Shown here: positions 1 to 41,966 of the stretch, piece by piece
Layout: each line of letters begins with the position of its first letter
Position numbering within the stretch: position 1 is the first letter of the stretch
NCBI GenBank assembly: GCA_937982115.1
Contig: CALJNE010000040.1
Coordinates: 1 to 41,966, forward strand
DNA: 41,966 bases
Direction of reading: 5' to 3'
Source: an uncultured Bacteroidales bacterium
GTDB lineage: Bacteria > Bacteroidota > Bacteroidia > Bacteroidales > ML635J-15
Notes under the pieces: model-generated
Database searches by the model: none
Told to the model about the DNA's origin: nothing
The model's input: only the letters and a program-made list of their open reading frames with translations
Made by a program: the position numbers and the translations under genes

Positions 1-855
1 AAGGGAGTAAGATGTCCTATGGAATTATCCACATACTTCAGGATAAATGCAGCAAACAGCGGACAATTTGAAAGAACATTAATTGTTGCTGACGAAGACT
101 CTTACGTGAGTTATATGGAAGGATGTACAGCTCCGATGAGAGACGAAAATCAATTACATGCTGCCGTGGTTGAAATTATAGCTTTAAAAAATGCAGAAGT
201 AAAATATTCAACCGTACAAAATTGGTATCCCGGCGATAAAGCAGGGAAAGGCGGCATTTATAATTTTGTTACCAAAAGAGGTATTTGCAAAGGCGATAAC
301 TCAAAGATTTCGTGGACACAGGTTGAAACCGGTTCAGCAATAACATGGAAATACCCGAGTACAATACTTAAAGGAGATAACTCAGTGTCGGAGTTTTATT
401 CAGTAGCAGTAACAAATCATTTTCAACAAGCAGATACAGGAACAAAAATGATTCATCTCGGTAAAAATACTAGCAGCACTATTGTTTCAAAAGGTATTTC
501 TGCCGGGCGAAGTAATAATTCCTACAGAGGTCTTGTAAAAATTGCCAAGAATGCAGTCAATTCAAGAAATTTTTCGCAATGCGACAGTTTGCTGCTTGGC
601 GATAAATGCGGAGCTCACACTTTTCCTTATATTGAAGTGGAAAACGATAGTTCCATAGTAGAACACGAAGCTACTACCTCAAAAATCAGCGAAGATCAGA
701 TATTTTACTGCAATCAGCGTGGAATTTCCACTGAAGATGCAGTTGGATTAATTGTAAACGGTTATGCTAGAGAAGTTTTAAACAAACTGCCCATGGAATT
801 TGCCGTAGAAGCTCAAAAACTTCTGCAAATAAGCCTTGAAGGAAGCGTCGGATAA
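1..855 (+). CDS. sufB: Fe-S cluster assembly scaffold SufB (5' truncated by window edge)
   Basis: C-terminal ~285 residues of SufB, the scaffold subunit of the SufBC2D complex that builds Fe-S clusters in the cytoplasm. The frame is open from base 1 ([13 protein letters not shown]), so the ATG at 19 is internal and the true start lies upstream of the window. Seen: the beta-helix core with MEGCTAPM, the [21 protein letters not shown] stretch that carries the conserved cysteine used in cluster assembly, the EHEATTSKI segment and the C-terminal FYCNQRGI helix. All are typical of the family. Its TAA shares its last base with the ATG of the next gene (TAATG, 853-857), which suggests translational coupling. 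It heads a sufB-HEAT-sufC-sufD-feoB run. The identification is secure; only the N-terminus is missing. Confidence 0.97.
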
Positions 856-1391
856 TGAATAAACCAAATAACATAGAACCATTTTTGAACGCCATCGGAA
901 TTATGCAAGAACATACAATTCTAAAGCTCAAGTCAAATCCTGATTTGATTGAAGAAATTGCAGAATATTCCTTTTCCGACAATCCTGACGCATGGAAAGC
1001 CGTATGGATTCTTAACTTATATCTTGACAGATATGATGGACAGCAAATAATCTCCCATTACAGAGATGCGTTCATAGAAAATTTACATAAGATACAAAAA
1101 GACGGTCATATTAGAGAAATCATAAAACTATTAACAAAAATTAAACTAAGTGAAGAACATGAATCGGAAGTTTTCGACTATTGTTTCTCACAACTTTCAA
1201 ACAATAAGATACAGGCTTCAGTTAGGGCAATGTCTTTTCAATTTATATTAAACGCAGCAAAAAAATATCCCGAAATAACCGAAGAAATAGAATACATTTT
1301 TGAGGATATTAAAAATTATTTAAGCCCCGGTATAAGAAGCAGCATTCAAAATAAAATAATGAAAACAGAATTGTTGAATAATAAAAAATAA
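855..1391 (+). CDS. HEAT-like alpha-helical protein inside the SUF operon
   Basis: A 178-residue cytoplasmic protein with no signal peptide or membrane segment. It appears all-helical. The pattern 'NPDAWKAVWILNLYLDR' followed by 'SVRAMSFQFILNAAKKYPE' and 'SPGIRSSIQNKI' looks like degenerate HEAT/ARM-type helix pairs, and I recall similar short helical proteins from Bacteroidota genomes. Function unknown. It starts at the TAATG overlap with sufB and ends 4 bp before sufC, so it is translated with the Fe-S scaffold genes. That position suggests, by inference only, an accessory or client-binding role for the SUF machinery. Lys/Glu-rich, no catalytic motif visible. The family assignment is by eye and uncertain; that it is a real gene is near certain from the packing. 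Confidence 0.8.
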   Translation: MNKPNNIEPFLNAIGIMQEHTILKLKSNPDLIEEIAEYSFSDNPDAWKAVWILNLYLDRYDGQQIISHYRDAFIENLHKIQKDGHIREIIKLLTKIKLSEEHESEVFDYCFSQLSNNKIQASVRAMSFQFILNAAKKYPEITEEIEYIFEDIKNYLSPGIRSSIQNKIMKTELLNNKK

Positions 1392-1395
1392 GAAT

Positions 1396-2136
1396 ATGTT
1401 ATCAATAAAAGATTTACATGCCGAAATAAACGGAAGAGAAATTTTAAAAGGAATAAATCTCGAGATAAAAAAAGGGGAAGTTCATGCCATAATGGGACCC
1501 AATGGATCAGGAAAATCTACACTCGCATCTGTATTGGCAGGGAAGGAAGATTACGAAATTACAAAAGGCGAAGTTCTCTATATGGGAAAAAATTTACTTG
1601 ATCTTTCAGTGGAAGAAAGAGCTAAGGAAGGTATTTTTCTAAGTTTTCAATATCCAGTAGAGATTCCCGGTGTGAGCATGATTAATTTTATGAAAACAGC
1701 CGTAAACGAACATCGTAAATATCAAGGTCTGCCGCCAATGAGTTCGGCTGAATTTCTGAAATACATGCGTGAAATGAAAGATATTGTTGAATTAAAATCT
1801 GATCTGGCAAACCGTTCTGTAAATCAAGGATTTAGCGGAGGAGAAAAAAAACGTAATGAAATTTTTCAGATGGCAATGTTAAAACCTAAACTTGCCATAC
1901 TCGACGAAACAGACTCCGGATTGGATATTGACGCTTTAAGAATCGTGGCAAATGGTGTTAATAAATTAAAAACCAATGAAAATTCCATAATTGTTATTAC
2001 TCACTATCAAAGGTTGCTTGATTATATAGTTCCCGATTTTGTGCATATTTTGTATGACGGTAAAATAGTTAAATCAGGAACAAAAGAATTGGCACTCGAG
2101 TTAGAACAAAAAGGTTATAATTGGATTAAAGAATAA
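1396..2136 (+). CDS. sufC: Fe-S cluster assembly ATPase SufC
   Basis: ABC-type ATPase of the SUF complex; ATP hydrolysis drives rearrangement of SufB-SufD during cluster assembly. It has 246 residues, the normal family length. Seen in order: Walker A GPNGSGKST (residues 34-42), Q-loop region LSFQYPVEIPG (82-92), ABC signature FSGGEKKR (146-153) typical of SufC, Walker B LAILDE (167-171), D-loop SGLDID and switch His in ITHYQR (about 203). The ATG is preceded closely by the stop of the HEAT-like gene (4-bp gap), and sufD starts about 11 bp after its stop. Standard gene; nothing missing. Confidence 0.98.
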   Translation: MLSIKDLHAEINGREILKGINLEIKKGEVHAIMGPNGSGKSTLASVLAGKEDYEITKGEVLYMGKNLLDLSVEERAKEGIFLSFQYPVEIPGVSMINFMKTAVNEHRKYQGLPPMSSAEFLKYMREMKDIVELKSDLANRSVNQGFSGGEKKRNEIFQMAMLKPKLAILDETDSGLDIDALRIVANGVNKLKTNENSIIVITHYQRLLDYIVPDFVHILYDGKIVKSGTKELALELEQKGYNWIKE

Positions 2137-2147
2137 AATTCTTGAAT

Positions 2148-3512
2148 ATGGATATTGAAACTTCTTTTAAAAAATATATAAAGCTTTTTGAAGAAACATC
2201 TTCAAAACTAAAAAATGAAGATAGCGAGTTTGTTTACAAAACTCGTATCAAAGCTTTTGAAAAATTCAAAGAAACAGGATTGCCTGATCATAATCACGAA
2301 AACTACAAATATGCCGGCATAGCGGAAATTTTATCCGAAGATTATGAGTTTTCTTTAGAATCACGACAAGCTCTGGTTGATTTAAACCACTTTTTTGAAT
2401 GCGAAGTTAAAGATTTAGACACTCATGTCATTTTACTTTCAAACGGTGAATATTATCAGAACAACAAACCCATTGAGGGCATTAACGAAAATATTATTAT
2501 TTGCAGTCTGAAAGAAGCAAAAATTAAACATAAAGACCTCTTTGAAAAATATTACAACAAAACCGTATCAGAAAGCAATGACGGCTTTGTCGCTTTAAAT
2601 GCCATGTTTGCTAATGACGGTTTATTTATTTACGTTCCCGATAATACAAAAGTCAACAAAACTATTCAACTCGTAAATCTAACACATGGTTTTGGAAATA
2701 AAAATATTTTTAAAAGGAATCTTGTTGTTGTTGGTAAAAATGCCGAACTATCTTTGATTATTTGTGATCACACCCTTAACAACAGTAAAAATTTCACCAT
2801 TGACATAACAGAAAGTTATGTTGAAGAAAACGGATTTTTGCAATATCATACCTTACAAAACGAACCCAACAAATCATCAGTAATAAACAATCTTTTCATT
2901 CAGCTTGAAAGATATGCAAGAATAAATTCTTTTGTATTGTCTTTACATGGAGGCCTTATAAGAAATAATCTTTATGCAAAGCTTTCAGGAGAAAATTCCG
3001 AAGCAAATCTTTACGGAGTTAACCTTACCGACAGAAAACAAAGAATAGACAATTTTACAATTATTGACCATATAGCTCCTAACTGCACGAGCAACGAACT
3101 TTACAAAGGAATTCTCGATGAAGAAGCAAAAGGATCATTTGCCGGAAGAATTATTGTAAGGCCGGGAGCTCAAAAGACAAATGCCTATCAGACAAACAAA
3201 AACATCTGTCTCACTCCCGAAGCTAAGATGCGAACAAAACCACAACTGGAAATTTATGCCGATGACGTAAAATGTTCGCATGGAGCTACTGTTGGGCAAC
3301 TTGATGAAGATGCTCTATTTTACCTGAGACAAAGAGGAATTGATTACAAAGAAGCACGCTTGCTGTTAATGTTTGCTTTTGTGAACGATATTTTATTAAA
3401 AATGGAAATCGAACCATTACGCAATAGAGTTGCAAGTCTTATAAATGCGAGATTGCGTGGAGAGTTTAGCGACTGTTCACATTGTTTGTTAAACTGTCAT
3501 ACAAGAGAATAA
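2148..3512 (+). CDS. sufD: Fe-S cluster assembly protein SufD
   Basis: SufD forms the heterodimer with SufB on which SufC acts, and is required for iron delivery to the nascent cluster. 454 residues from the ATG at 2148; an in-frame TTG at 2142 would add two residues but is a poorer start. Seen: the beta-helix core and the diagnostic C-terminal block CSHGATVGQLDEDALFYLRQRGI, which includes the conserved His. The extreme C-terminus is DCSHCLLNCHTRE, a CX2CX3C cluster beyond the usual end of the core fold, which could bind a metal or Fe-S cluster (inference). The next gene, feoB-like, begins 4 nt after the stop. Confidence 0.97.
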   Translation: MDIETSFKKYIKLFEETSSKLKNEDSEFVYKTRIKAFEKFKETGLPDHNHENYKYAGIAEILSEDYEFSLESRQALVDLNHFFECEVKDLDTHVILLSNGEYYQNNKPIEGINENIIICSLKEAKIKHKDLFEKYYNKTVSESNDGFVALNAMFANDGLFIYVPDNTKVNKTIQLVNLTHGFGNKNIFKRNLVVVGKNAELSLIICDHTLNNSKNFTIDITESYVEENGFLQYHTLQNEPNKSSVINNLFIQLERYARINSFVLSLHGGLIRNNLYAKLSGENSEANLYGVNLTDRKQRIDNFTIIDHIAPNCTSNELYKGILDEEAKGSFAGRIIVRPGAQKTNAYQTNKNICLTPEAKMRTKPQLEIYADDVKCSHGATVGQLDEDALFYLRQRGIDYKEARLLLMFAFVNDILLKMEIEPLRNRVASLINARLRGEFSDCSHCLLNCHTRE

Positions 3513-3516
3513 TACT

Positions 3517-5850
3517 ATGGTACACACTCCGGAAATAGAAATTGGAACAGAATACTATATCAGTAAACTCACAGGCAGATGGGGAATTAGACGCAGGATA
3601 AATTCCATTGGAATAAATTCCGGAAAAAAAATCATCTTTCTAAGAAAAAATCGTAACGGACAATACATTTTTAAATTTTCGGATAAGAAGAGAAAACAAA
3701 AATTACCAAACAATTATCTTCATTTTATAAATCTTATCCCTACAGATGATCCAAATTTTGAGCTAAAAGCAGATGCAGATTCAAAAACTATTTATGTTGA
3801 TATTTTTCGGAACGAAGATACTACATGTTTAAATATTTTCGAAAAAGAAAACGAATATGCTTATAATGACCACAAGTTCAGAATTAACTATTTGCCTGCA
3901 CTATCTACAATCTACGGAGAACAATACGAAAGAAAAAAACTTAGAAATAAAATTCTTAGCGATTTCCCGGATGTTTTCCTAGGTATTATAGACTTTAACA
4001 ACCTCGAAAACGATTTGTTTCTACTCACCCAATTTATTGATATGGATGCGAAAATCGTTTTGGTTGTCAAGAATTACGATGAGAGCAAACTTGAAAAACC
4101 TGTTGATTTTGAACTTTTGGGAAAACTTATTGGTATTCCAATTTTAAAAATAAACGAAGACGAAGGTATAATTTCCGAAGAAGACAGAAAAAAACTTTTT
4201 GAAACCTTAATTCGCACTCATAAGGATATTGAACCGGATGTGCGTCATGTACACGTTAACTTTGGCAGAGAAATCGAAAAAAGCATATCAAACCTTATAA
4301 AATTTTTAAAACGCAGAACCAAAAACGATTTTATAGCTTCGGCACGATACCTTGCAATTGGTTTGTTGGAAAACGATCCTCTAATTTATAAACTTTTTGA
4401 AAATGAGAAATGGTATCACAAACTAAAAGAAAAGCGCAAATCAGAAGCTGAAAGATTATCAAGTTTATATAATGACCATGTTTTTAACATTATAAAAAAT
4501 GCCCGAAAGGCTTATGTGAGCGGAGCAATTAAAGAAATTAATGCTCCATACCAACCGGAGACACTTACCAAAAAAATAGACAGAATAGTAACTCACAAGT
4601 TTTGGGGATTCCCAATTTTTATAGCCTTTATGGCTCTAACATTTTATTCTACTTTCGAGCTGGGAAAAATTCCAATGCATTGGCTTGAAAATGGTATAGA
4701 AAAATTAACAAATTATCTCGAAAACTCTCTCGCCCCAAGTTTCTGGAAAGATTTGATTATTAACGGAGCTATTGATGGAGTTGGCGGAGTTTTGGTGTTT
4801 CTGCCTAATATTTTTATTCTTTTCTTTTTCATTGGTTTTCTAGAGACATCAGGATATATGTCGCGGGCAGCCTTTATAATGGATAAGTACATGCACAAAA
4901 TCGGTTTGCACGGAAAATCCTTTATCCCAATGATTATGGGATTTGGTTGTACCGTGCCTGCTATTTTGAGTACACGTATCCTCGAAAACAAAAGAGACAG
5001 AATTCTCACAATGCTTGTCGTACCGTTTATGTCCTGTTCAGCTCGTTTGCCGGTATATATTTTACTAATTTCGGCATTTTTCCCGGAACAGCCGGTTTTA
5101 ATTCTTTTTGGAATTTATGGTTTTGGAATTCTGCTGGCAATGATTGTATCGTTGTTTTTTAGTAAAACCATTTTAAAGCAGAAAGAAAATCCATATATAA
5201 TGGAGTTATTGCCATACAAACGGCCAAGTATAAAGTTCCTGCTTTATTACACATGGATGCGAGGTAAAGAATATTTAAAAAAGATTGGTGGTATAATTCT
5301 TATAGGATCGGTAATTATTTGGTTGTTGGGTTATTTTCCAAGAAATGTACAATACAGCAAAAATTATGATGAGTTAATCAGCAATGCCGAAAGCACCGAA
5401 AAAATTGATGAACTTTTACTTCAAAAGGAAGCGGAACATCACAAACTTTCTTATATTGGACAAATAGGTTCTTTAATTGAACCTGTTATGCGACCTCTGG
5501 GTTTTGATTGGAAAATGAGTGTAAGTTTAGTAGCAGGTATAGCCGGAAAAGAAATTACCGTTAGCACAATGGGAGTACTTTATCAAGCTAAAGAGGAAGG
5601 ACATTCATTGCAAAACAAATTAAAATCCGAAGTATATACTTCTGGTCCAAAAGCAGGAGAACCTGTTTTTACAAAACTTGTTGCTCTGGCATTCATGTTT
5701 TTTGTTTTAATTTATTTTCCGTGTATGGCTGTAATTTCTGCCATCTGGAAAGAATCTAAACTTAAATGGGCAGTTTTTACCGCTGTTTATACAACTGCAT
5801 TGGCCTGGTTAGTCGCCTTTGCAATCTATCAAATAGGAAGTCTTTTATAG
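3517..5850 (+). CDS. FeoAB-type ferrous iron transporter with a degenerate (pseudo-GTPase) G domain
   Basis: A 777-residue FeoB-family inner-membrane protein. Residues ~10-76 resemble a divergent FeoA SH3-like domain (GIRRRINSIGINSGKK). Residues ~90-235 align with the FeoB G domain but its GTP-binding motifs are gone: the P-loop GxPNxGKTT position reads DIFRNEDTTCLN (95-106), the switch I/G2 stretch is missing, G3 DLPG reads NYLPA (124-128), and G4 NxxD reads KNYD (185-188). The segment PDVFLGIIDFNNLENDLFLLTQ still matches FeoB well. The membrane domain looks intact: LETSGYMSRAAF, GFGCTVPAIL (475-484; GCNVPA in most FeoB), MSCSARLPVY (505-514), AGIAGKEITVSTMG and VLIYFPCMAVISAIWKE. It is 4 nt after sufD, tying iron uptake to Fe-S assembly. 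FeoB-family membership is secure; loss of GTP binding is inferred from motifs. Confidence 0.93.
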   Translation: MVHTPEIEIGTEYYISKLTGRWGIRRRINSIGINSGKKIIFLRKNRNGQYIFKFSDKKRKQKLPNNYLHFINLIPTDDPNFELKADADSKTIYVDIFRNEDTTCLNIFEKENEYAYNDHKFRINYLPALSTIYGEQYERKKLRNKILSDFPDVFLGIIDFNNLENDLFLLTQFIDMDAKIVLVVKNYDESKLEKPVDFELLGKLIGIPILKINEDEGIISEEDRKKLFETLIRTHKDIEPDVRHVHVNFGREIEKSISNLIKFLKRRTKNDFIASARYLAIGLLENDPLIYKLFENEKWYHKLKEKRKSEAERLSSLYNDHVFNIIKNARKAYVSGAIKEINAPYQPETLTKKIDRIVTHKFWGFPIFIAFMALTFYSTFELGKIPMHWLENGIEKLTNYLENSLAPSFWKDLIINGAIDGVGGVLVFLPNIFILFFFIGFLETSGYMSRAAFIMDKYMHKIGLHGKSFIPMIMGFGCTVPAILSTRILENKRDRILTMLVVPFMSCSARLPVYILLISAFFPEQPVLILFGIYGFGILLAMIVSLFFSKTILKQKENPYIMELLPYKRPSIKFLLYYTWMRGKEYLKKIGGIILIGSVIIWLLGYFPRNVQYSKNYDELISNAESTEKIDELLLQKEAEHHKLSYIGQIGSLIEPVMRPLGFDWKMSVSLVAGIAGKEITVSTMGVLYQAKEEGHSLQNKLKSEVYTSGPKAGEPVFTKLVALAFMFFVLIYFPCMAVISAIWKESKLKWAVFTAVYTTALAWLVAFAIYQIGSLL

Positions 5851-5917
5851 TATTTAAAGCAATATAAAATTTCTTAGTAAAATTTTATTATTTTTACTGA
5901 AACTAAAAACTTTATAT

Positions 5918-7234
5918 ATGAAATTTCCTGATGAATTAAGCTGCAATTATATCACTGAATTAAACAAATACGTTATTGTTGATCCCTATCCGTTTTCAAT
6001 AGATTTAAAAAATTCCCGCGGAATGTTTATACAAACCGTTGAAGGCGAAAAAATATTCGACTGGACAGGTTTGTACGGGTCAAAATTATTAGGATATAAT
6101 CATTCGGGAATGTTCGAAAAAGAATATATCGAAAAATTGATATATGCAGCAAATAATAAAATGCCAAATCCTGATTTTCTCACTCCCGAATGTTTGGAGT
6201 ATTATCGTTTGCTGCACGAAATTGCACCTCGCTGCATGAAAAACGAAAAACTTGAAGTTTACAGCGTTAACTCCGGAGCCGAGGCCGTAGAAAATATGAT
6301 GAAATATTTCATCAATATTTATAACAAACGTATGATACGCTGCGGAAAACCAATAACACAACGCCGTTTTATTTATTTTGACCAAGCTTTTCACGGTAGA
6401 ACGGTATTTGCACTAAATGTTACTGTTCTGGATCATGATCCAATATTAAATAAAGATTTTAAGGGAATTATTCCGGGCAATCTGAGAATGCCATTTCCGG
6501 CATATAACAGTGAATTAAGTGATGAAGAAAATCGCACTGAGATGAGAAATGCTTTAGCAGCACTGGAATATGCTATAAAAACCTATCAGGATGAAATAGT
6601 GGGACTTATCTTAGAGCCTCTACAAGGAGCAGGAGGACAAAGGCATGCTCTTCCGGAGTTTTACACAGAATTAAGTAAACTTTGCAAAAAATATAATATC
6701 CTCTGGGGACTCGACGAAGTGCAAACAGCTGGCGGTCAAACAGGTGAAATTTTTGCAATTGATTTGTTCGACATCCCCTACCCTCCAAATGCTGTGGCAA
6801 CTGCAAAAAAATTTGGAAATGGAGTCGTTTACATGATTAAACCTATGGAAGATATTGGAGTACTTGACTCTACCTGGGGAGGAACATTAGCAGATATGGT
6901 GAGATTTGTGCAAGAATGGAAAATCGTTCGCAAAGAAAAACTAATTGAACAAATTCCCGAAAAAACAGAATATCTAAAAAAAGCTTTGTATAGTTTGAAA
7001 GAAAAATATCCGAACATTATTTATAATATCCGAGGATTAGGCATTTATCAAGGTTTTAGTTTAAAAGAAAAAGAATTGAAATCAATACTTATCGAAAAGG
7101 CATTGCAAGAACAAAATCTCTTACTACTGGGGGCAGGACCAAGCACTATTCGCTTAAGACCGCCGCTTGATATGAGCTTTGAAGATATTGATTTACTGCA
7201 TGAAAAACTTGACCAGGTGCTAAAAACTTTGTAA
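5918..7234 (+). CDS. Class III PLP aminotransferase, L-lysine 6-transaminase-like
   Basis: 438-residue fold-type I aminotransferase. The N-terminal VDPYPFSIDLKNSRGM, the NSGAEAVENMMK phosphate-binding region, the AFHGRT motif, LDEVQT (PLP-binding Asp ~266), ATAKKFGNG (Schiff-base Lys ~297/298) and STWGGTLADMVR all match the lysine 6-aminotransferase branch as I recall it from the mycobacterial enzyme. LAT converts L-lysine to 2-aminoadipate semialdehyde. Difference: the conserved gate glutamate in QGEGG is Ala here (LQGAGGQRH, ~238), so the substrate may not be lysine. It follows feoB by 67 bp and precedes the lipase-like gene by 6 bp. Family sure; substrate uncertain. Confidence 0.88.
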   Translation: MKFPDELSCNYITELNKYVIVDPYPFSIDLKNSRGMFIQTVEGEKIFDWTGLYGSKLLGYNHSGMFEKEYIEKLIYAANNKMPNPDFLTPECLEYYRLLHEIAPRCMKNEKLEVYSVNSGAEAVENMMKYFINIYNKRMIRCGKPITQRRFIYFDQAFHGRTVFALNVTVLDHDPILNKDFKGIIPGNLRMPFPAYNSELSDEENRTEMRNALAALEYAIKTYQDEIVGLILEPLQGAGGQRHALPEFYTELSKLCKKYNILWGLDEVQTAGGQTGEIFAIDLFDIPYPPNAVATAKKFGNGVVYMIKPMEDIGVLDSTWGGTLADMVRFVQEWKIVRKEKLIEQIPEKTEYLKKALYSLKEKYPNIIYNIRGLGIYQGFSLKEKELKSILIEKALQEQNLLLLGAGPSTIRLRPPLDMSFEDIDLLHEKLDQVLKTL

Positions 7235-37059: not shown

Positions 37060-40000
37060 ATGAAAAAGTTAATCTTAACATTGTTTATAATTCCGCTTAG
37101 TTTAGTGGTATTGAGTCAGTCATATACCATGAGCGGCTACAATGGACAGACAATATCAACCTGTTCCGGATCTCTTTCGGTTGGCAGTTACAGTGTTGGA
37201 CAAACTCTAACAGTAACAGTTTGTTCCAATAATCCTATAAATAGATTTGTACGCTTGTTCATAAGTTCATATAGTTTTCCAAACGGAACTTCTTTAACAG
37301 TTTATGACGGGCCAAATACATCAGCACCGGTTCTGGAAGTTTATAATCATACAACAACCTCCGGAACACTATCAGTTGTTGCTTCCAATATGAATGAATC
37401 CGGATGTTTGACATTCGTATTTGTAGGAAATGTAAGCGGAGGTTCGTTTTCCGGAACATTATCCTGCGAATTTCAATGTATGCCTCGTCAGGTATATATA
37501 ACTGCATCAAATCCTCCAATGGTTAATGAAGGAGGTATAGATTACATTAACGTTTGCTGGAATCCTGCAACAAACTCTTCATTTCCAGTAACTTTCACAG
37601 CAAACGGAGTTTATCCAAATCCGGGTTATCCGTTAAATGATGGAACAGTAACTTTCACATGGAATTTTCAAGATGGATCTCCAATACAATCAGGAGTTGG
37701 ATTAAATCAAGTTACACATACTTTTCCAGATCGCAGAGGTTATGTGGTAATAGTAACTATTACCGATCAACAAAACTGCACAAATACAAATGCCGTGGCC
37801 CAACGCGTAAGAGTTTCAAGAAAGCCTATTTGGAATACACAAACAACTACTCTAAGCCCTACTGCTATTTGTATGGGGCAAACCGTAAATATGTGTGGTT
37901 ATTATTCTTCCTCAGCATGGAACAGTAGTGTTGTACCGGCAATGGCTGACACAGTACCACTACCGGATGGTACCGGTGTATGCTATAACAGTCCATTAAT
38001 GCAAAATCAATTCAACCCTGGACAAACAGTAACAAGCATAAACGATATCATCGGTATTCACATGAATATATGCCATACATTCATCGGGGACCTTACTTTT
38101 TACATACAATGTCCTAATGGTACAATAGTACAAATGGGAATACAGGGTGGAGGTGGCTGTGATTTGGGAAATCCACCAAATCAAGGTTGGTGGTACACTA
38201 TCAGCCCATCAGGAACACAAACCATGCAACAAGCTGCTGTTGGGCATTCAGTCTTGCCTCCCGGAACATATGCTTCTTATCAAAGTCTTGCAGGATTAAT
38301 AGGATGTCCGCTTAATGGGACATGGACAATAAGAATTTGTGATAACTGGGCAATTGACTCCGGAACATTATTTGGTTGGTGGATAGAGTTCAATCCTAGT
38401 CTATTCCCCGAATTATGGAGTTACACAAATTCTTATACCCCTACATCATGGCAAGGAGTTTATGGATCACAGATGAATCCTCCCACAAATCAGAACTGTG
38501 CTACAGGAACCTATACAACTACAGGTACACCTAACATAAATTCCCAACAACCATTTACATTTACAATAACTGATAATTTTGGATGTACTCATGATACTAC
38601 TTTAACAGTTTTGGTACGCCATATGAATGATCCAAACTGCTGTATATTACCTAATCCAAATGCAGGAGCTGATAATTCTGTTTGTGCACTTAATTATACA
38701 TTAAATGCATCTAATCCAGCTCCAAATAATACAGTAGAATGGACACTAGTTTCAGGACCGGGAACTGCTACATTTACAAACCCAACAAGTAATGTGACAA
38801 ATGTTACAGTTAGCATGTACGGTACTTATACATTCAGAATTACAGAAAGATACTTAGGTAACTCAGGATGTCAACGCAGCGATGATGTTGTAATAACTTT
38901 CAATCCTACCTACATTCCAACTTTAACACCTGTAGATAATATGTGTGTAGGGTCAATGCCTGTACAATTATCTGCTCCTAATTTTGGGACATTAACTTGC
39001 TCACCAAATCCACAATTGTTGGATCAAAACTCAGCTATATTCTCTCCAAACTTACCAGGAAACTATACAATTACAAATACAGTGAATGATCCATGTACTG
39101 GCGGTCCTGTAACTTCACAAATAAACTTTACAGTTTACGATCAGATTAATATCCAAAACTTTAATGAAGTTTGTGGTCCTACAGGTTCTCCAACTTATTT
39201 CTATGTTTCTTGGGATGTTGTTGGTTCACAAGGTAATCCATTTTCCGGATATCTTGTAAACGGAATTTCTCAAGCAAATCCACATTTTCAGGCAACAATA
39301 GAATCTCCAAATGCATATAATTACACTGTTGCAGATGTAAATGGCTGCAGCAGTTTTGAAATTAACGGATTCCGCGATTGCGGTTGCCCTTTTTATGCAG
39401 GTACAATGGGAAGTCTCAACACAATCATTCTATGTGGAAATGAATGTACTTCACCATCCGTAACACATAACGGAGACCAATTAACAGATAACGGAGCAGG
39501 AATATTTGAATTTATGATACATACAGGAAACAATATTCCAATAGCAAGAAATTCAACCCCTAACTTTTGTAGATTACCATTAGGATTGCAATATAACACT
39601 ATATATTATGTTTCTGCAATTGTTGGATTAAATGACGGCAGTGGACATGCAAATATAACATCAGGATGTTATCACATTTCACAGGGGACACCTGTTATGT
39701 GGCTCGAAATGCCATATGCTAACGCTGGTACGGATAAAGATACTTGCGGTTTAATGATCAGATTAAATGCTAATACTCCAGTTCCAGGAATGTATGGATA
39801 TTGGACTTCAAGTTGCTCTAATTTTGTAACAATTGGAGGAACAAATTACACTCAACCTAATCCTATAGTTTTAGTCCCTGATTATCAAAACTGTACATTT
39901 ACATGGAATATTGCAAACGGACAATGTGTTTCCCATGATGATGTTGTAATAAGATTTTTAAGAACTCCATCACCTTTTGCAGGTGATGATTTCACTATTT

Positions 40001-41966
40001 GTGGCAATTCTGCAGTAATGCAAGGCATACCAAGTGTTACCGGATCTAATTTATCATGGAGTGGATCTGGAACTATTTTTAATCCACAAACAAGTGCTAA
40101 TGCAGAAACAATTATAAGTGTTTTTGGAACTTATGAATATACGCTAACTGAATCTATAGCAGGATGTTCAGGATCAGACAAAGTTTTAGTGACCTATGTT
40201 CCAGAACCTAATCCAACAACAACTCCCGGAACAGATACTGTTTGTGGAACTACTACAACGCTTACAGTTTATAACTCCATCGGAGTTGGACAATGGACTG
40301 CATTAAATCCTACAACCGGTACACCAATAACACCCCAACCAACATTTACACCTAATATTAATTCCCCGATAGTAAATGTATCTATTGGTAACTACACCGG
40401 GAATTATACCGAGATACTTTTCAGATGGCAAGAAACCACTCAATTAAACGGCGTACAATGTACCGGAACTGTTGAAAAGAAAGTCAGATTTGCACGTATG
40501 CCTGTTGCTAGTGTTGGAGCTGTTAATGAAGCTGAAAGATGTGGAAATTGCATAGAATTAGAAGCAGATGTTACCGGATCACAATGGGCAGAAGGAATGT
40601 GGATTGTAGGAAAAGTTATTCCTGAATCATGGGCACCATCTCAATATCAACCAAACACTACTCTTTGTATCAGAGAAATTGGTTCTTATGGAGATACTGC
40701 TCATGTTAGAGTTCCAATAGGATGGGCATTGTACAATCCCGATGCAAGATCTTGTCAATCTGTTGATACAATGTGGGTAACATTCTATCGCAGACCACAA
40801 GCAAATGCCGGTTTAGACAATGCTGTTTGCGGAAACAATTATACTCTTGGAGCTGTATATAGTTTACCTCAAACCAGCGGATATAATCCTTCAGGTTTAT
40901 GGTCTGTTTACTCACGTCCAAATGTTACTCCGCCCCCATCGGCAACCTTTGCTAATTTGAATAACGACACTACTCTTGTTACAGTATCCAATACCGGATT
41001 TTGGCAATTTGTTTTCAGAGAAAACAACACTTTACTTAGCTCGTGTTACTCAACAGATACAGTAAAGATAGAATTTGTTGAAATTCCAATAATTTCCGCA
41101 GGTCCGGATAAACATGTTTGTGGACAATGTACTCAACTTCAAGGAACTACAGCAGGTTACAGTATGAGCTGGACAGATAATGGAGCACAATATTCTGATT
41201 ATACTATTCCAAATCCAAATGTTTGTGTAAACACTTATGGACCTCGCGAGTTTGTGATGATAGAAACAAATATGTCGCAACCTCCGTTTACACTTGCTTG
41301 TCAGGCAAAAGATACTGTTATAATCACTTTCTGGAGAGTTCCAACAGCAAATATTTTAACTGACGAAGCAGACTCTACAGTTTGTGGACTGACATTTCCA
41401 AGACTTAGAGCTGAAAATCCGGGAACAGGTATTCGTGGATATTGGAGTACAAACAATCCTTTCACACAGTTCTCGCCAAATGCTTATACATGGAACAATG
41501 CATCAGCTACGGTTCCTTCTTATGGATTCCATGACTTTTACTGGATTGAAGAAACCGGTCCTGAAGATATGCCTGGTTTCTGTACCGATACAGCCGGTCC
41601 ATTAAGAATTAGATTTATTCAAATACCTACTGCAAATGCAGGTAACGACACTCTGTTCTGCGGGTTCTCCGGAAATCTTAATGCTATTCCAAGTGTTGGG
41701 ACCGGGGTATGGTCAACACCTTCAACACAAAACATCAGTTTCAATAATGCAAATAGTCCTAATGCAACGGTTACTTCAAACATTCTTAATGCAGGAAATC
41801 CGGCTAATCCGTATTTCTTACTTATCTGGACTGAAGATAACACAAACGGCTGTACAGATAAAGACACAATTAAAGTACGTTTTGCAAGAATTCCTTCATC
41901 CGATGTAATAATTATTCCTCCAAAATGCTTTGGCGAAGAAGCCACAATCAGAGCTGTGGAAGATAC
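37060..41966 (+). CDS. Giant exported multidomain surface protein (3' end beyond window)
   Basis: ATG at 37060 with signal peptide MKKLILTLFIIPLSLVVLSQ; open for 1635 codons to the window edge with no stop. Order: CUB-like domain (~25-147; RLFISSYSFPNGTSLTVYDGPN...GCLTFVFVG), PKD-like domain (~200-240; VTFTWNFQDGSP, RRGYVVIVTITD), proprotein-convertase P-type domain (~328-445; GDLTFYIQCPNGT, LNGTWTIRICDNW, FGWWIEFNP), then from ~530 many 85-100-residue modules with an 'ANAGxDxxVCG' opening, a central Trp strand and a closing 'DxVxVxF'. Rich in Thr, Asn and Cys. This layout is that of T9SS-exported gliding/adhesion giants of Bacteroidota, so a C-terminal sorting domain is expected beyond the edge. 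No protease catalytic domain within the visible part. Confidence 0.9.
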   Translation, partial: MKKLILTLFIIPLSLVVLSQSYTMSGYNGQTISTCSGSLSVGSYSVGQTLTVTVCSNNPINRFVRLFISSYSFPNGTSLTVYDGPNTSAPVLEVYNHTTTSGTLSVVASNMNESGCLTFVFVGNVSGGSFSGTLSCEFQCMPRQVYITASNPPMVNEGGIDYINVCWNPATNSSFPVTFTANGVYPNPGYPLNDGTVTFTWNFQDGSPIQSGVGLNQVTHTFPDRRGYVVIVTITDQQNCTNTNAVAQRVRVSRKPIWNTQTTTLSPTAICMGQTVNMCGYYSSSAWNSSVVPAMADTVPLPDGTGVCYNSPLMQNQFNPGQTVTSINDIIGIHMNICHTFIGDLTFYIQCPNGTIVQMGIQGGGGCDLGNPPNQGWWYTISPSGTQTMQQAAVGHSVLPPGTYASYQSLAGLIGCPLNGTWTIRICDNWAIDSGTLFGWWIEFNPSLFPELWSYTNSYTPTSWQGVYGSQMNPPTNQNCATGTYTTTGTPNINSQQPFTFTITDNFGCTHDTTLTVLVRHMNDPNCCILPNPNAGADNSVCALNYTLNASNPAPNNTVEWTLVSGPGTATFTNPTSNVTNVTVSMYGTYTFRITERYLGNSGCQRSDDVVITFNPTYIPTLTPVDNMCVGSMPVQLSAPNFGTLTCSPNPQLLDQNSAIFSPNLPGNYTITNTVNDPCTGGPVTSQINFTVYDQINIQNFNEVCGPTGSPTYFYVSWDVVGSQGNPFSGYLVNGISQANPHFQATIESPNAYNYTVADVNGCSSFEINGFRDCGCPFYAGTMGSLNTIILCGNECTSPSVTHNGDQLTDNGAGIFEFMIHTGNNIPIARNSTPNFCRLPLGLQYNTIYYVSAIVGLNDGSGHANITSGCYHISQGTPVMWLEMPYANAGTDKDTCGLMIRLNANTPVPGMYGYWTSSCSNFVTIGGTNYTQPNPIVLVPDYQNCTFTWNIANGQCVSHDDVVIRFLRTPSPFAGDDFTICGNSAVMQGIPSVTGSNLSWSGSGTIFNPQTSANAETIISVFGTYEYTLTESIAGCSGSDKVLVTYVPEPNPTTTPGTDTVCGTTTTLTVYNSIGVGQWTALNPTTGTPITPQPTFTPNINSPIVNVSIGNYTGNYTEILFRWQETTQLNGVQCTGTVEKKVRFARMPVASVGAVNEAERCGNCIELEADVTGSQWAEGMWIVGKVIPESWAPSQYQPNTTLCIREIGSYGDTAHVRVPIGWALYNPDARSCQSVDTMWVTFYRRPQANAGLDNAVCGNNYTLGAVYSLPQTSGYNPSGLWSVYSRPNVTPPPSATFANLNNDTTLVTVSNTGFWQFVFRENNTLLSSCYSTDTVKIEFVEIPIISAGPDKHVCGQCTQLQGTTAGYSMSWTDNGAQYSDYTIPNPNVCVNTYGPREFVMIETNMSQPPFTLACQAKDTVIITFWRVPTANILTDEADSTVCGLTFPRLRAENPGTGIRGYWSTNNPFTQFSPNAYTWNNASATVPSYGFHDFYWIEETGPEDMPGFCTDTAGPLRIRFIQIPTANAGNDTLFCGFSGNLNAIPSVGTGVWSTPSTQNISFNNANSPNATVTSNILNAGNPANPYFLLIWTEDNTNGCTDKDTIKVRFARIPSSDVIIIPPKCFGEEATIRAVED
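38656..41966 (+). repeat. Ladder of 85-100-residue protein modules in the giant gene
   Basis: Repeating module openings are seen at about 38656 (NPNAGADNSVC), 39718 (ANAGTDKDTCG), 39973 (PFAGDDFTICG), 40201 (PGTDTVCG), 40501 (PVASVGAVNEAERCG), 40795 (PQANAGLDNAVCG), 41086 (PIISAGPDKHVCG), 41341 (PTANILTDEADSTVCG) and 41626 (PTANAGNDTLFCG), with another starting near 41893. From 40201 on, the spacing is 255-300 bp. Sequence divergence between copies is high, so the duplication is old. Confidence 0.8.

Follow-up and report, generated by a model that had tools for sequence, protein, structure and literature searches.

PseudoGTPases of the Ras superfamily retain the G fold with the nucleotide motifs lost and are presumed to act as scaffolds. 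One proposal holds that FeoB works as a GTP-gated channel and not as a transporter (PMC4847171). Among the closest described systems, the FeoAB fusion of Bacteroides fragilis (NFeoAB) has FeoA fused to the FeoB N-terminus and hydrolyses GTP slowly (PMC8980893), whereas nucleotide-promiscuous FeoBs such as that of V. cholerae depart from strict GTP use and are reported to differ at G5 while retaining nucleoside triphosphate binding and hydrolysis (PMC11406355). Here we describe a feoB gene in a stretch of 41,966 nucleotides (the window; contig CALJNE010000040.1) from an uncultured Bacteroidales bacterium. Its product is a real, selected FeoB variant in which most of the GTP machinery is lost.

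The window protein appears to have the same domain order as B. fragilis NFeoAB, but lacks G1, G3, and switch I and has a diverged, putative FeoA part. It resembles the FeoB family TIGR00437 and the NFeoB structures 3k53 and 9ba6 in its permease core, helical domain, and overall N-domain fold; however, it has no P-loop or switch I, and only the Asp of G4. Unlike the V. cholerae-type proteins it is without G1, G2, and G3, and unlike the Ras-superfamily PseudoGTPases its pseudo-G domain sits inside a bacterial metal permease. No FeoB without the G motifs was described in the titles and abstract openings of the open-access literature searched. A natural, selected FeoB that lacks most of the GTP machinery, and beside which no other FeoB was found in the same genomes, would show that the core can work nucleotide-free; the window protein is an object for testing whether Fe(II) passes without GTP and what has taken the place of the switch.

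Loss of the G motifs in a FeoB-family permease

The gene and its domains were laid out as follows.

3517..5850, + strand: pseudo-GTPase FeoB, 777 amino acids, consisting of FeoA-like, pseudo-G, and helical/GDI domains, two Gate stretches, and FeoB_C
3517..3741, + strand: putative diverged FeoA-like (SH3-like) domain, residues 1-75; PF04023 below cut-off, strands present in the model, gradient across the family
3787..4230, + strand: pseudo-G domain, residues 91-238, which has lost G1 and G3 and carries a deletion of switch I; the G4 slot reads KNYD
4231..4551, + strand: helical (GDI / FeoB_Cyto) domain, residues 239-345; PF17910, 43.6 bits
4552..5847, + strand: membrane permease core, residues 346-777, with Cys478, Cys507, and Cys736; PF07670 in two stretches, and PF07664

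The window protein scored 437.9 against the curated NCBIfam model TIGR00437 (cut-off 315.65), with the match starting from position 32 of 594, and the Pfam families PF07670 and PF07664 exceeded their cut-offs. The Gate/FeoB_C core with its conserved Cys motifs was accompanied by the predicted fold of an N-terminal G domain and a helical domain, and the overall N-domain fold of the predicted model was common to NFeoB structures such as 3k53 and 9ba6. Both membrane-core signatures named in the original prediction, GxGCxVPA and SCSARLPVY, were found, as GFGCTVPA and SCSARLPVY. The Pfam FeoB_N match (43.9 bits, cut-off 27) covered only profile positions 37-145 of 156; because it begins at position 37, the part holding G1 and switch I is missing.

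Motif scoring covered G1 (GxxxxGK[ST]), the switch I/G2 Thr, G3 (DxPG), and G4 (NxxD), with no separate score for G5; of G4, the window protein kept the Asp alone. The G1 slot of the window protein reads DIFRNEDTTCLN (residues 95-106), the G3 slot NYLPA (residues 124-128), and the G4 slot KNYD (residues 185-188), in which the Asn is lost. In the alignment with canonical FeoBs, the VGNPNxGKT columns became FRNEDTTCL, DLPG became YLPA, NMYD became KNYD, and switch I was deleted; in G1 the two Gly, the Lys, and the Thr were each replaced, as was the Asn in G4. These readings agree with the original prediction, which had described a G1 without GK, an absent switch I, NYLPA, and KNYD in this frame. 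Hidden motifs and a frame error, two of the refuting outcomes named in the original prediction, were ruled out, as the six frames of 3301-6000 contain only two G1/G3/G4-like strings, TKND (4318) and NKRD (4987), neither of which lies in the G domain. The same motif loss was observed in a protein 91% identical to that of the window from another genome (G014, L015).

The 45 canonical FeoBs share 58 G-domain columns at 93% conservation or more; seven of these were kept throughout the 10 group A rows (window-like) and 10 throughout the 11 group B rows (the other pseudo forms), whereas 88 and 67 of 117 conserved membrane-core columns were kept, respectively. The helical domain kept eight of 13 such columns across all 10 group A rows. 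Nine switch I columns, each conserved in at least 42 of the 45 canonical FeoBs, fell in a gap in every group B row and in eight or more of the 10 group A rows, and Cys478, Cys507, and Cys736 were kept in every row of both groups (10/10 and 11/11). Three rows were left out of the alignment: L019 has an internal stop, L027 is partial, and L063 is distant. The window protein is a FeoB by descent and by its permease, and by motif it is no FeoB GTPase.

Distribution, phylogeny, and constraint

A protein search of 61 genomes (that of the window and 60 relatives) gave matches in 58. Fifty loci including the window's were read, of which 24 had both G1 and G3 and 26 had neither; the latter comprised 14 group A loci and 12 group B loci, the group B proteins sharing 36-39% identity with the window protein. 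With N-domain profile A1, the pseudo form was detected in 27 of 31 family genomes (298-549 bits; other N domains at most 169 bits), and in 26 of these 27 no stop lay within the N-domain match. Row set A1 held 20 of the 26 pseudo rows, A2 held 23 (the 25 minus L070, L081, and L115, plus the window), and A3 held 17. The pseudo form of G007 was a 201-residue match only. In the four family genomes without the pseudo form, either no FeoB was found (G010) or the FeoB had a P-loop (G025, G026, and G030). The pseudo loci are labelled uncultured Bacteroidales, Bacteroidota, Marinilabiliales, or Bacteroidia, and several group B labels cite the rumen or other ruminant stomachs.

Among the matches listed from 247 genomes of the order, three family members scored 506-539 bits and the next best 212.8; this search kept matches at 1e-40, found in 189 genomes, and very divergent forms may be missed in the 58 without a match. 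For the phylum, TIGR00437 was run over 128 Bacteroidota genomes at least 90% complete, with a match at 1e-60 in 107. Sixteen of the listed matches started after position 1, namely the window's (32), G326 (154), G364 (189), and thirteen at 205-247, each of which has same-frame neighbours. Five of the 15 others were read and rejected as independent losses: the gene in G326 has a broken reading frame and its G motifs lie in other frames, the frame of G364 is cut by the contig end with an N-part match on another contig, and L177, L178, and L179 have a P-loop. The clade-wide loss that the original prediction had wished to see checked holds for one Bacteroidales family and not for Bacteroidota at large, as far as sampled. 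FeoB-like genes that are apparently split into an N-domain frame and a permease frame were seen in G045 (L180) and G036 (L181/L182; permease frame cut by the contig end), and contig C42 of G023 carries two canonical-type copies of equal score about 10 kb apart on opposite strands.

No second FeoB was found in the window's own genome (90.65% complete), where the original prediction had proposed looking for a canonical one, or at E 0.001 in the 14 group A genomes. An NFeoB-like GTPase acting in trans was also rejected in the own genome: six of seven other FeoB_N matches were Der, Era, MnmE, HydF, EngB, and HflX, and the seventh (L004) was the second G domain of the same 461-residue Der frame. 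The two other Gate matches there were a NupC-type protein (592 residues, 390.3 bits, curated cut-off 442) and a 417-residue protein with no NCBIfam match at 1e-20. An importer search of this genome covering Nramp and ZIP found no Nramp and one ZIP-family transporter frame. Twelve of the 13 group B genomes also carried a canonical-type FeoB; the G motifs were read in six of them (L054-L058 and L062), and the other six were assigned by the same profile score, that of G007 in a shorter frame.

In a tree of residues 239-777, from which the G domain was excluded, all 21 pseudo rows formed one clade (100/100) separate from 45 canonical rows. Group B was nested within this clade on a long stem (1.73), and the six canonical FeoBs from group B genomes fell outside it. 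This tree further omitted the incomplete L022, L024, and L059, and from one sample of 55 canonical loci it included 22. A second tree, built on residues 346-777 with group B and 11 canonical rows left out, again gave group A as one clade (100/100), with the bootstrap incompletely settled. On these trees, the pseudo-GTPase FeoB has a single origin.

The ratio of nonsynonymous to synonymous substitution rates (dN/dS, omega) was calculated for 12 chosen pairs. Of nine pseudo pairs, seven had a measurable dS, and these gave 0.018-0.131 for the pseudo-G domain (three of the values being rough, with dS above 1); it was 0.015-0.029 for the canonical G domain (three pairs); two group A pairs had a saturated G-domain dS. 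The pseudo-G domain is under constraint and, because its omega is higher, less so than a working GTPase.

Readings of the pseudo-G domain

We regard it as probable that the gene encodes a ferrous-iron permease whose N-terminal G domain has turned into a pseudo-GTPase, Fe(II) being ungated or gated by something other than a nucleotide. The Rossmann-like core and helical domain would persist, folded and under selection, as a module that links the FeoA-like domain to the membrane core, but the P-loop and switch I are gone, as is most of the motif for base recognition; with these parts lost, the module most likely neither binds nor hydrolyses GTP, and motifs and model together make it very probable that it binds no nucleotide. 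The conserved core and the linkage to suf genes, which stand upstream in seven of 13 different group A loci searched (L064-L070), point to a putative Fe(II) importer, and Fe(II) transport by the group A permease is likely. Passage might be free, or be gated through a protein partner, a metal, or redox; nucleotide control would have been lost or replaced, which suggests an iron gate that works without its supposed GTP fuel. A FeoB-family permease with a pseudo-GTPase domain, and not a decayed gene, had been claimed originally, and the predicted fold, phylogeny, selection, and recurrence in the family all uphold it.

Several points weigh against this reading. According to published work, the FeoBs studied cannot import iron without their G domain, and pseudo-GTPases can still bind nucleotide unconventionally. 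The G4 Asp is retained in the window protein and in seven of 10 group A rows, and omega of the pseudo-G domain, low as it is, exceeds that of the canonical domain. The group A genomes are 87-99% complete, so a second FeoB may be missed in some, and the full-length AlphaFold2 model (predicted local distance difference test 72.9, predicted template modelling score 0.50) is too weak to use for membrane coupling.

The retained Asp also bears on a rebuilt, unconventional pocket that still binds nucleotide. The fold persists in the model, G134 occurs in 21 of 21 pseudo rows versus two of 45 canonical rows, and most pseudo rows, with L025 and L026 as exceptions, carry an IxGDDYxxKxxRN-like stretch in the place of switch II. 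However, the replaced G1 residues and G4 Asn, the deleted switch I columns, and the mapping of the K+, Mg2+, and phosphate contacts to lost parts (PMC3153494) make such a pocket very unlikely, and each of the 11 group B rows has Cys where the G4 Asp would stand. Loss of Fe(II) import, with the permease serving another metal or as an iron sensor, would best suit group B, given the canonical-type FeoB beside it, its long stem, and its fewer kept core columns; a ZIP-family transporter is present in the window's own genome as well. Against this stand the three Cys kept in both groups and, for group A, the lack of another FeoB found and the suf genes upstream, and we judge it unlikely overall. Decay, or an assembly or frame error, has next to no probability and is refuted for the clade as a whole: the weaker constraint and the internal stop of one group A relative (G011) would fit it, but the recurrence of stop-free forms across the family, the low omega, and the other frames of the window gene, which hold no G motifs, oppose it.

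Cysteines offer one candidate for replacement control. A new C-x2-C-x4-C motif near the start of a helical-domain helix was present in nine of 14 group A loci (L017, L019-L024, L026, L027), in all 12 group B loci read (L038-L044, L047-L050, L059), and in none of 55 and none of 24 canonical FeoBs. Extra Cys also occupied the former nucleotide pocket, at the P-loop Lys column in seven of 10 group A rows and at the G4 Asp column in the 11 group B rows. Another Feo protein, the separate FeoC, has a Cys motif that reportedly assembles a [4Fe-4S] cluster in E. coli (PMC8749426), a parallel that may serve as a lead. The clade might have replaced nucleotide gating by direct metal, iron-sulfur, or redox sensing, these Cys opening or closing the permease; we hold this to be possible but rather doubtful. 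The triad is missing in L015, L016, L018, L025, and the window protein; the last has the pocket Cys C104, and its lack of the triad argues against Cys sensing as a clade-wide rule. The flanks of L086, L076, L074, L087, and L072, whose unannotated open reading frame (ORF) lists were read by eye, showed no obvious replacement regulator.

FeoA-like domain and suf neighbourhood

Residues 1-75 probably form a fused, diverged FeoA-like domain, which was absent from the original prediction. Residues 6-54 gave a sub-threshold match to PF04023 (16.5 bits, and 20.8 bits in a second scan; cut-off 23). The match declines across the family: canonical FeoBs reach 68-70 bits, the two early-branching pseudo forms score 33 and 28.7, the window protein scores 20.8, and the remaining 11 group A genomes give no match. 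Since FeoA is reported to contact NFeoB in a nucleotide-dependent manner (PMC8980893), the joint divergence of the FeoA and G domains fits.

The genes ahead of feoB were as follows.

1..3512, + strand: sufB (3' part, cut by the window start), an ORF of 178 residues, sufC, and sufD

The feoB start lies four bases past the sufD stop. Six of the seven suf-linked loci have sufB, sufC, and sufD upstream, and the short locus L066 has sufC and sufD; in L070, about 1.6 kb separates the suf genes from feoB. No suf genes were found upstream in the other six loci (L071-L074, L087, and L026), four of which have less than 3 kb upstream. The group A relative G011 (L019/L070) has one in-frame TAA ahead of the pseudo-G domain. 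The 178-residue ORF (855-1391, + strand), between sufB and sufC, has no Pfam family at 1e-5; it was matched in L064-L066 and L068-L070 and not in L067. At 37060-41964 (+ strand), a very long frame of at least 1635 residues continues past the window end.
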